Positions 51,520 through 55,074 of a DNA stretch of 64,000 nt are shown here, piece by piece (the stretch's first letter is position 1; every line of letters starts with the position of its first letter). The stretch is from NCBI RefSeq assembly GCF_003173775.1, contig NZ_CP029552.1:2055001-2119000 (forward strand), written 5' to 3'. The notes beneath the pieces were generated by a model. That model worked only from the letters and a program-made list of their open reading frames with translations, was not told the origin of the DNA and did not search any database. Source of the DNA: Methylobacterium sp. 17Sr1-1. GTDB lineage: Bacteria > Pseudomonadota > Alphaproteobacteria > Rhizobiales > Beijerinckiaceae. A program made the position numbers and the translations under genes.

Positions 51520-53964
51520 TCACCCCTCGATGATCGACCGGATCTTGGTCGCCAGGCCCTCCACCGGGAAGGGCTTGGTGATCATCTGCATGCCCGGGCC
51601 GAGATGGCCGTTGCCGAAGGCGGCGTTCTCGGCGTAGCCGGTCATGAACAGCACCTTCAGCTGAGGGCGCACCAGCCGGGCCTGGTCGGCGAGCTGGCGG
51701 CCATTCAAGCCCGGCAGGCCGACATCGGTCACCAGCAGGTCGATGTGGGAGGCCGATTGCAGCAGGCGCAGGCCCGCCGGCCCGTCGCCGGCCTCCAGGG
51801 TGCGGTAGCCGAGCTCGTGCAGCACCTCGACCACCAGGGCCCGCACGGTCGGATCGTCCTCCACCACCAGCACCGTCTCGCCGCGCTCGGCCCGCGGCAC
51901 CTCGCCCCGCACCTCGGCGGTCGATTCGACCTCGCCGTGGTAGCGCGGCAGGTAGAGCTTGACCGTCGTGCCCTGGCCGGCTTCCGAGTAGATCTTGACG
52001 TTGCCCTCCGACTGCTTGGCGAAGCCGTAGATCATCGAGAGCCCCAGGCCCGTGCCCTGGCCGAGCGGCTTGGTGGTGAAGAACGGGTCGAAGGCCCGGG
52101 CGATCACGTCCGGCGGCATGCCGGTGCCCGTATCGGTCACGCTGATGCACACGTACTGCCCCGCCCGCACGCCGATGTCGCGCGCGGCATAGGCGTCGTC
52201 GAGATGGGCGTTGGCGGTCTCGATGGTGAGCCGCCCGCCCTCCGGCATCGCGTCGCGGGCGTTGATGGCGAGGTTGAGGATCGCGTTCTCGAGCTGGTTG
52301 GGGTCGCAGAGCGTCAGCCACAGGCCGCCGGCCACCACCACCTCCAGCTGCACCCGCTCGCCCAGCGTGCGGCGCATCAGCTCGTCCATCGAGCTTACCA
52401 GCCGGTTGGCGTCGACCGCCCGGGCTTCCAGCGGCTGGCGGCGCGAGAAGGCGAGGAGCCGGTGGGTCAGCGCCGCGGCGCGCTGGGCCGAGGCCATGGC
52501 GAGGCCGGCATAGCGCGTGAGGTTCTCGGTGCGGCCCTCGTTGATGCGGGTCTGCATCAGGTCGAGGGAGCCGACGATGCCGGTGAGCAGGTTGTTGAAG
52601 TCGTGGGCGATGCCGCCGGTGAGCTGGCCCACCGCCTCCATCTTCTGCGACTGGCGCAACTGCTCCTCGGCCCGCTCGCGCTCGGCCACCGCCTCGCGCA
52701 CCCGCGCTTCGAGCGTGTCGTTGAGCTCGCGCAACGCCACCTCGGCCCGTTTCGACTCGGTGACGTCGTAGATCACCCCGACATGGCGAAGGCCCGAGGT
52801 CTCGGTGTCGCGGATCGCCTCGCCGCGGCGCACCAGCCAGTGCACCTCGCCGGTATCGGCGAGCCGCACCCGGGTCTCGATCGGCGGCAATTCGCCCTCG
52901 TGGCGCTGGTCGGGGGCCAGCAGCGGCGGGTCGCCCTCGATCACCAGCGCATTGACGGCGCTCGCCGCGACGGTGCGGGCCGGCACCAGGCCGAGCAGGC
53001 TGCAGAATTGCGGCGAGGCGGTCACGGTGGCGAAGCCCGGCACGTGCTCGAAGGCGCCGACCCGGCCTGCCGACTGGGCGATGCGCAACCGCTCCTCGAC
53101 CCGCTTCTGCTCGGTGACCTCGACCAGCACGCCGGTGAAGCGGGCGGGCCGGCCGTCGGCACCGAAATGGCAGCGGCCGCGGGCATGGACCCAGCGCACC
53201 GAGCCGTCCTGGGCGAGCAGGCGGTACTCCTTGTCGAACACCTCGGCCCCGCCGAGGATGCCGCTCACCGCGAGGCGCAGCCGCAGGCGGTCGAGGGGAT
53301 GGATGCCGGTGAAGAAGGCGCTCGCCGGCAGCGGGCCGGGCGCGAGCGGCACGGTGCCGGGCCGCGGCGGGGGACTGAGCCCGGTGAGCGCGGCGAAGCG
53401 CCCGTCGACGTGCAGGCGCTTCTCCGCGATGTCCCAGTCCCAGGTGCCGGCGATGCCGGCCGAGGACAGGGTCAGGGAGAGCTGGCGCTGCGCCTCGGCC
53501 AGCCGCCGCTCGATGTCGGCGAGGCGCTCGCGCCCGGTCTCGGCCTCGTGGACATGCGACATGTCCACCTGCGAGGCGAAGAAGTTGACGAGGCGGCCGG
53601 CCTCGTCGTGGATCGGGCAGATCAGCAGCTGGTTCCAGAACCGGCTGCCGTCGCGGCGGTAGTTCAGGAGCGTGACCCGGACCACGCGCTCCTCGCGCAG
53701 GCCCTCGCGGATCGCCGCCATCGCGCCCGGATCGGTGTCCGCCCCCTGCAGGAAGCGGCAATTGCGCCCGATCACCGCGGCGGCGTCGTAGCCGGTGAGC
53801 GTCAGGAAGGCCTGGTTGGCGAACACGACCGGGTTGTCGGGGAGCTTAGGGTCGCTGATCAGCATCGGCTGGCGCGAGTGCTCCAGCGCGACGAGGAGCG
53901 GCCCGGCGCGGGTGCGCGCCGCCGCGATGGCCGCCGCGAGGGCGGTGCCGTCGGGGGCGCTCAC
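51520..53964 (-). CDS. LOV-domain hybrid histidine kinase (putative blue-light receptor)
   Basis: 814-residue soluble kinase. The N-terminal PAS is a LOV domain: GRNCRFLQG with Cys69 (flavin-adduct cysteine), flavin-contacting Asn101 and Asn111 ([12 protein letters not shown]) and Gln132 (FFASQVD). Two further PAS/PAC modules follow (about 160-285 and 295-405), then a HisKA domain with [11 protein letters not shown] (His454), a HATPase with [10 protein letters not shown] and GQGTGLGLS, and a C-terminal receiver with phospho-acceptor Asp747 ([10 protein letters not shown]) and Lys797. Blue light would form the cysteinyl-FMN adduct and change autophosphorylation. It lies 28 bases after the CheC-type gene; the GTG start lacks an obvious binding site, suggesting coupled translation. 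Confidence 0.93.
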
Positions 53965-53992
53965 GCGGTGGGTCCGGGACGGGGGCCGGGCG

Positions 53993-54658
53993 TCATGCGT
54001 CGAGATCGCCGAGGGCGCGGGCGATGAACTCGTCGACCAGGAGCCGCAGGTTCTCCAGCGACGGCAGGTCCATCAGCATCGCCAGGTAGCCGCGAATGTC
54101 GCGCTCGCTCACCGAGAAGTCGATGTAGAGGAACAGCACCAGGGCGTCGGCCCCCGCCGCCTCGCCGGTCTCCAGCCCGAAGATCCGCGGGCCGTCCCCG
54201 CGCACGATGCCGGGCAGCGACATGGTGAGCGTGCGCTGGAGCATGTTCGCCATGGTGGCGAGGCAGCCGTTGAGGATGATGTTGCCGGTCTCGGCCAACG
54301 CCTCGTCCTCGAGGGCGGCGACCTCCTCGGGCGACAGTTCCTCGCCGGCGACGGCCCGGACCAGCTCGCGGCCGTTCTCCTGCGGGAAGATCAGCAGGGC
54401 GCGCCCCGCGAAGGCGCCTTCGAAATCCTGGTGCACCACCACGAGCGGCGCCGCCTCGCGCTCGCCGATCAGCCGCGCGGCGGCCTGGCGCGAGACGATC
54501 TCGACGGAGGGCACCGAGAGCAGCACCTGGGTGCCGATCATCTGACGCAGGCTCGCGGCGGCGCGGCTGACCCCGATATTGACGAGCTCGGTGAAGGCGT
54601 CCTGCTGCATCTCGGTCAGGCCCGCCGATGCAGCGGAACTCATGGTGTCATCGTTCAC
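53993..54658 (-). CDS. CheC-family CheY-phosphate phosphatase
   Basis: 221-residue cytoplasmic protein with both CheC active-site helices: FTELVNIGVSRAAASLRQMI (Glu24, Asn27) and ALAETGNIILNGCLATMANM (Glu123, Asn126). Each carries the E-x2-N pattern used by CheC/CheX/FliY to hydrolyse the aspartyl phosphate of CheY. The GTG start overlaps the stop of the CheY-like gene upstream (GTGA), which implies translational coupling; ATG 54643 is the alternative. With both sites intact, it should be active. Its location between a receiver and a LOV kinase points to resetting that pathway rather than flagellar taxis. Confidence 0.9.
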   Translation of the reverse strand: MNDDTMSSAASAGLTEMQQDAFTELVNIGVSRAAASLRQMIGTQVLLSVPSVEIVSRQAAARLIGEREAAPLVVVHQDFEGAFAGRALLIFPQENGRELVRAVAGEELSPEEVAALEDEALAETGNIILNGCLATMANMLQRTLTMSLPGIVRGDGPRIFGLETGEAAGADALVLFLYIDFSVSERDIRGYLAMLMDLPSLENLRLLVDEFIARALGDLDA

Positions 54659-55074
54659 GGCGTGCCGCCCCGGCGCAGGCGTAAGCTCACGCCCGAGAGG
54701 AAGCCCGCCAGCGCCTCGCCGGTGAGGGGCTTGGCCAGGAACGTCGCCTCGAGCTCGCGGGCGCGGGCGATCACCTCGTCCTGGATGTTGGCGGAGATCA
54801 CCGCGATCGGCATCCCCGGCCGCGTCGTGCGCAGGTCCTCCGCGAGGGCGAGGCCGTCCTTGCCCGGCATGTTGAAGTCGAGGAGCGCCATGTCGACGGG
54901 CTCGGCCGCCACGATGGTCGCCGCCTCGTCGGCATTGGCGGCCTCGCGCGCGACCCAGTCCGGCCGGGCCTGCCGCAGCAGCCGCACGGCGACGGCGCGC
55001 GCGAGCTTGCTGTCGTCGACGACGAGGACGGTGACGGGCGCGGGGGCGGTCGGAGGCTGCGACATGGTGAGCAT
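54655..55074 (-). CDS. CheY-like single-domain response regulator
   Basis: 139-residue stand-alone receiver. The acidic pair DD (20-21), phospho-acceptor Asp66 (LLDFNMPGKDG) and Lys115 (FLAKPLTGE) are all in place, with a Ser/Ala at the switch position (AVISANIQ). There is no output domain, so it works by binding a partner, as CheY does. Its stop overlaps the CheC gene start, and the LOV hybrid kinase follows: a receiver-phosphatase-kinase cassette in one transcript. The start is ATG 55074 or ATG 55065; neither has a clear binding site. Confidence 0.92.
   Translation of the reverse strand: MLTMSQPPTAPAPVTVLVVDDSKLARAVAVRLLRQARPDWVAREAANADEAATIVAAEPVDMALLDFNMPGKDGLALAEDLRTTRPGMPIAVISANIQDEVIARARELEATFLAKPLTGEALAGFLSGVSLRLRRGGTP

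Follow-up and report, generated by a model that had tools for sequence, protein, structure and literature searches.

The closest described systems and the locus

CheC proteins encoded beside two-component kinases are already known, as are Che-like pathways that contain hybrid kinases. We compared such systems with three same-strand genes in a 64,000-nucleotide stretch of the Methylobacterium sp. 17Sr1-1 genome (NZ_CP029552.1, positions 2,055,001 to 2,119,000, forward strand; the whole stretch is called the window), which encode a stand-alone receiver, a CheC-type phosphatase and a hybrid histidine kinase with a LOV photoreceptor domain. We consider it likely that the trio forms the distal end of a chemosensory-type operon of nine genes, which is conserved in several alphaproteobacterial families and is divided into two parts in this genome.

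The Che3 cluster of Rhodospirillum centenum encodes MCP3, CheW3a, CheW3b, CheB3, CheR3, CheA3, CheS3 and CheY3. The available part of the paper describes that CheY3 is phosphorylated by the hybrid kinase CheS3 and not by CheA3, that CheA3 acts on a CheS3 receiver, and that the output is non-chemotactic and concerns cysts (PMC3868531). The operon studied here likewise combines Che-like genes with genes for a hybrid kinase and a single-domain CheY. However, CheS3 is described in that part as a HWE kinase with N-terminal receivers, whereas the window kinase is not of the HWE type (Pfam assigns HisKA), has a C-terminal receiver and carries LOV in some lineages; CheA3 carries a receiver, whereas Pfam finds none in the cluster CheA of our genome; and the word CheC is absent from the paper.

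In the Dif pathway of Myxococcus xanthus, DifE is the CheA, DifD the CheY and DifG the CheC, and the pathway governs exopolysaccharide; DifG dephosphorylates the single-domain receiver DifD, which is perhaps merely a phosphate sink (PMC4671073, from the portion available). As here, a Che-like pathway pairs its single-domain receiver with a CheC homologue, but the Dif kinase is CheA and that portion describes no hybrid LOV kinase. CheC of Bacillus subtilis is a phosphatase of phosphorylated CheY (CheY-P) whose main role is exerted via CheD (PMC3513319, accessible in part). The window CheC, known from its sequence, belongs to the same family as that of the B. subtilis and Thermotoga CheC-CheD-CheY systems and has the E-x2-N sites; unlike them, the genome has no match to CheD (PF03975), with control matches in 5 of 14 genomes, B. 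subtilis included. An enzymatic role of CheC is therefore likelier here than a CheD-mediated one.

The kinase core with a C-terminal receiver resembles PRK13557-type histidine kinases and CckA, but two extra PAS domains lie between LOV and HisKA, and the scores stay below both NCBIfam cut-offs (574 vs 631 for PRK13557, 355 vs 1000 for CckA). Muff and Ordal (2008) reportedly described CheC outside chemotaxis. Neither this operon nor a link of LOV kinases to it turned up in our search of the open-access literature; subscription papers were mostly outside its scope, and CheC searches were partly confounded by the word "check". Photoreceptor-Che links of another type are published, namely fusions of photoactive yellow protein (PYP) with MCP (PMC12826048, in the part available).

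Chemosensory genes upstream of the receiver and the split of the operon

One scan of genome contigs gave 103 CheC relatives, and the best 80 of the 103 were kept as the named loci; they come from Methylobacterium, Microvirga, Sphingomonas, Novosphingobium, Sphingobium, Caulobacter, Phenylobacterium, Roseomonas and kin. In a per-locus tblastn audit, 76/80 named loci had CheA just ahead of the receiver in the same orientation, with CheR (71/80), CheB (69/80) and CheW (64/80) further upstream; the flanks, 6 kb at most, limit the last three counts. CheA is missing from two contig-edge loci and from L032 and L111, which are close kin of the window. The upstream order is CheW - CheB - CheR - CheA, the families being confirmed by Pfam in L044 (Sphingomonas soli) and L036 (M. 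terricola); the CheW carries up to three CheW domains, and an MCP stands ahead of it in all five extended regions (L169-L173). Clustering of the flanking open reading frames (ORFs) recovered the cluster under 25 genus labels, a few of which are unclassified metagenome-assembled genomes (MAGs).

A small STAS-like ORF (about 80 aa) lies between CheA and the receiver; an iterated profile detected it in 76/78 loci, the exceptions being L032 and L111, and a simple motif in 7. Its only Pfam match is STAS_2, under the curated cut-off in 5/5 tested (E 2e-5 to 0.02). The nine genes of the operon stand in the order MCP - CheW - CheB - CheR - CheA - small STAS-like ORF - receiver (probable CheY) - CheC - hybrid PAS kinase.

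The distal genes are also conserved. The receiver lies immediately upstream of CheC in 78/80 named loci, both misses (L072, L100) being contig edges, and a homologous PAS kinase lies downstream of CheC in 77/80. In two of the kinase misses, the Roseomonas loci L071 and L087, the sequence available downstream is long enough but contains no such kinase; the third, L080, ends at a contig edge about 750 nt past CheC. By these counts the receiver-CheC-kinase linkage is not due to chance, and the trio is conserved well beyond one strain. In the window the CheC GTG start and the receiver stop overlap by 4 nt (GTGA), and the kinase GTG start lies 28 nt downstream of the CheC end. The ORF and Pfam check bore out the original prediction in the coordinates, the strand and the tight packing or overlap of the three genes (Table 1).

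The same prediction had stated that no chemotaxis genes accompany the trio and had proposed a free-standing photoreceptor circuit. The first statement is right locally: Pfam finds no chemotaxis gene in the immediate neighbourhood within the window, where the trio is flanked by genes for a YkuD L,D-transpeptidase (upstream) and for a cNMP-binding protein (downstream). It does not extend to the relatives, with their CheA upstream, or to the rest of this genome, which holds the other half of the operon elsewhere. The free-standing circuit is not supported, as CheA, CheR, CheB, CheW and MCP precede the receiver in relatives; after the flank clustering and the tblastn audit we rejected the reading of the trio as a stand-alone operon. 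CheA, CheW, CheB, CheR and MCP are contiguous with CheY in relatives and are split over two loci here, the CheA half lying 811 kb (0.81 Mb) from the trio.

The genus set comprised 111 genomes, own included, with receivers taken at E up to 1e-20 and cluster CheA defined as matches of at least 51% identity. Receiver, CheC and cluster CheA were found in the identical 31/111 genomes among the matches listed; the other 80 also have some CheA, at most 44% identical to cluster CheA among those matches. CheA and CheC are neighbours in 27/31 genomes and separated in 4/31 (one pair per genome): by 811 kb in our genome, by about 5-7 kb and on opposite strands in G011 and G016, and on another contig in G004. 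The operon content, the co-occurrence, the split and the intact catalytic residues of the trio are established at the level of sequence.

Table 1. Positions of the trio, its domains, the break and the other half of the operon (window coordinates unless a genome or locus prefix is given)
Feature	Position	Strand	Basis and remarks
Stand-alone receiver, 139 aa	54655..55074	-	Pfam Response_reg (PF00072), 73 bits
CheC-type phosphatase (by family), 221 aa	53993..54658	-	Pfam CheC + CheX; GTG start
LOV-PAS-PAS-HisKA-HATPase-REC hybrid histidine kinase, 814 aa	51520..53964	-	Pfam; GTG start at 53964
LOV domain, residues ~23-137	53554..53898	-	motifs; PDB LOV matches across residues 23-137
HisKA domain	52435..52629	-	Pfam; presumed phospho-acceptor His454 in AHDFNN
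HATPase_c domain	51943..52305	-	Pfam
C-terminal receiver of hybrid kinase	51541..51873	-	Pfam; PDB 28tm_A, 137 bits
Break region	55103..55486	.	blastn vs contiguous G005 (L178); also vs G011, G016, G004 (split too)
127-bp dispersed palindromic intergenic repeat	55270..55396	+	just 5' of receiver
Other half, MCP - triple CheW - CheB - CheR - CheA - STAS-like ORF	G000:C1 2.912-2.931 Mb (L161)	-	Pfam, profile
MCP of other half	L161:14319-16838	-	Pfam MCPsignal
STAS-like ORF of other half	L161:8701-8946	-	iterated profile; STAS_2 below cut-off

Aligned with the contiguous genome G005, the window loses homology immediately 5' of the receiver, at the point where G005 has the STAS-like gene and CheA; the break thus falls between the receiver and the STAS-like gene. 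An inverted copy (90%) of the 127-bp repeat was found just beyond the STAS-like gene (G000:C1:2920344-2920469). Recombination between repeat copies is plausible but weakly supported, because the repeat occurs at 40 or more loci of the genome (40 of 180 candidates scored). The orientations in G011 and G016 disagree with a simple history of one inversion.

Several observations weigh against reading the trio as part of one conserved operon-encoded pathway. With the halves 0.81 Mb apart, co-expression is not given in this genome. Among more distant CheC relatives, taken from a class sample (14/385 genomes, own included) and a phylum sample (76/398, own included) among the matches listed, the receiver is upstream of CheC in 14/16 class loci read (L116-L131) and in 14/27 further phylum loci (L132-L158). 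L116, L118, L129, L132 and L133 have CheA ahead of the receiver, as do L156-L158 (36-37% identity), but L119-L128 and L131 show no CheA in the short flank of about 1.1 kb upstream of the receiver; these 11 loci suggest that the wider family may include versions free of Che genes. FliG_C was found in 45/50 carrier genomes, so a flagellar role is possible there. Among the five carriers in which it was not found (L059, L064, L087, L098 and L110; draft assemblies, L110 being a MAG), L064 and L087 have a second CheA, and L087 is without an adjacent kinase.

Part of this evidence speaks for an autonomous blue-light two-component circuit, in which light activates the kinase, phosphate passes to the receiver, CheC resets the receiver and the Che genes are uninvolved. 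The trio stands apart from CheA here and in G011, G016 and G004 with its residues intact, and some of the 11 distant loci without CheA in the short flank have a kinase after their receiver-CheC pair. However, our genome retains the other half of the operon, no genus genome (0/111, among the matches listed) has receiver and CheC without cluster CheA, and LOV is often absent while the remaining operon persists. We regard such a circuit as improbable; it could hold for this genome specifically, if the split freed the trio.

Another explanation, which we rate as very improbable, is that the receiver and CheC are the CheY and the CheY-P phosphatase of the flagellar chemotaxis system. CheC acts as a CheY-P phosphatase in B. 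subtilis chemotaxis (PMC3513319, the part accessible). The window CheC is the only CheC/CheX match in the genome, which has a second CheA cluster at 3.96 Mb. Against this, CheC and receiver occur in just 31/111 genus genomes (among the matches listed) although 111/111 have CheA, and FliG_C was not found in 5/50 carriers. Within these five, L059, L098 and L110 gave one CheA each, beside the receiver; this search can miss a CheA, as it did in L051, where tblastn shows one, so that "only one CheA" is not certain for these genomes. The operon being kept in some genomes without detectable FliG, the partner of the receiver need not be the flagellar motor, and the pathway seems, from gene content, independent of a flagellum.

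CheA presence had also been tried as a test of motility. It was uninformative, since the dimerisation domain search found CheA in 50/50 carrier genomes (of 50 of the 80 loci), but it pointed to the adjacent CheA: a weak CheA match lies 1.6-2.0 kb upstream of CheC in nine compared loci (L042, L044, L059, L070, L073, L076, L098, L107, L110).

Receiver, CheC and the predicted phosphate flow

The original prediction of a CheY-like receiver and of a CheC with both E-x2-N sites agrees with Pfam and with the alignments. In the receiver, D20, D21, D66, S/T94 and K115 are kept in every row with letters there (78 rows, one truncated; L045 and the contig-edge loci L072 and L100 are left out of the alignment). 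CheC scores above both family cut-offs (PF04509, 35 bits against 22; PF13690 CheX, 43 bits against 27), and its two sites, D20/E24/N27 and E119/E123/N126, are invariant in 81/81 aligned CheCs, that is, the window and the 80 named relatives. A PDB relative is the CheC 1xkr (E 1e-7), and the AlphaFold model is confident (mean pLDDT 84.3, pTM 0.81).

Some genomes carry additional copies of these genes. A second CheC lies behind the kinase on the opposite strand in three Phenylobacterium loci (L057, L063, L076), and after a kinase on the same strand in G124 (L116/L130) and G356 (L129/L117). Extra receiver paralogues with 53-56% identity were found in L159 (G105) and L160 (G106), where the stretches taken show no CheC, CheA or LOV match beside the paralogue; that of G105 has a stop codon within the matched frame.

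A receiver without an output domain is expected to work through binding a partner. An output-less receiver, a CheC with both sites and a CheA in one operon suggest that the receiver is a CheY and CheC its phosphatase. We therefore propose, from gene content and motifs, that the pathway probably uses the receiver as its CheY and CheC as the phosphatase, with the LOV hybrid kinase in an accessory role. The MCP/CheW array would control CheA, and CheA would phosphorylate CheB and CheY. Under the control of light, the LOV hybrid kinase would be a second enzyme that delivers phosphate to this CheY or drains it, and may itself be regulated via its own receiver, much as CheS3 is by CheA3 in R. centenum; CheC would hydrolyse CheY-P. 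The two Roseomonas loci L071 and L087, which keep CheA-STAS-CheY-CheC without an adjacent kinase, suggest that CheA can serve CheY alone; the kinase could lie elsewhere in those genomes.

The receiver and CheC might instead form a phosphate sink draining CheA or the LOV kinase, in which case a phosphorelay or a different receiver would carry the true output. In favour, the receiver lacks an output domain, the core of the kinase is similar to that of CckA, and M. xanthus DifG dephosphorylates phosphorylated DifD, itself likely a sink (PMC4671073, the portion available). The operon proteins scanned contain no receiver besides that of CheB and the kinase's own, so the output would have to be unlinked, which speaks against a sink. 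We judge this explanation rather unlikely, though it may be a mode of the operon pathway proposed above and not an alternative to it.

The hybrid kinase and its LOV domain

Pfam identifies PAS_9 (the LOV), PAS_3, HisKA, HATPase_c and Response_reg in the kinase, and its PDB relatives include CckA (5idj_A) and LOV kinases. The LOV cysteine and the flavin-contact Asn/Asn/Gln are present, namely C69 (in GRNCRFLQ), N101, N111 and Q132; the domain order LOV-PAS-PAS-HisKA-receiver and the flavin-contact residues at these positions had been predicted, and Pfam and motifs agree.

The prediction had made light the defining feature of the module, and here the relatives disagree. CheC does stand next to LOV kinases in many of them: a LOV with its cysteine occurs in 35/77 named kinases. 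In a further 2/77 (Microvirga L068 and L082) glycine replaces the cysteine of a LOV-like domain, and 40/77 are without a canonical LOV (L072, whose assignment is ambiguous, was entered as no LOV). No sphingomonad row has a LOV (0/22), whereas the LOV cysteine was found in 30/30 genus loci examined, the window's included, out of 32 CheC places found. On the 81-row CheC tree the LOV-or-not label changes 9 times, at least 6 of these changes being forced by well-supported branches; shuffled labels gave a mean of 26 changes, and 0/500 shuffles were as low as 9. LOV is thus clustered on the tree, yet was repeatedly gained or lost, and the distribution indicates that the LOV front end of the hybrid kinase is exchangeable between lineages.

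The LOV of L031, L043 and L106 has leucine in place of Gln132 (L031 judged by eye). It is possible, judging from residues, that variants at Cys or Gln132 give light-blind LOV domains or altered photocycles within the same operon.

The hybrid kinase is the only scanned operon protein with a recognised known sensory domain. In the MCP of our genome, Pfam gives MCPsignal only, in two stretches, and no recognised sensor domain. A Kyte-Doolittle scan of the five usable MCP frames (L161, L169, L170, L172, L173; L171 left out) detected no N-terminal hydrophobic segment: two frames have no window above 1.6, and three have such windows only deep inside the protein. The true MCP start is probably at a conserved MALVKK, as read from the frames.

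Because the kinase alone has a recognised sensory domain, and the MCP is without a recognised ligand-binding domain or N-terminal membrane anchor, we tentatively raise the possibility of an "inside out" pathway, in which the hybrid kinase and not the MCP would give the specific input. Lineages would swap the input domain (LOV, other PAS or none) on a fixed MCP/CheW/CheA/CheY/CheC core, and a Che pathway, not necessarily flagellar, might be under blue-light control in Methylobacterium, Microvirga and some Caulobacter.

The case of strain 17Sr1-1 also carries a warning, that three genes which look like a complete operon locally can be a piece cut off from a larger one. Here a kinase with an intact LOV photoreceptor domain is tied to a full Che-type pathway that has a CheC of its own, and the operon would offer a concrete system for how hybrid kinases feed signals to chemosensory pathways.

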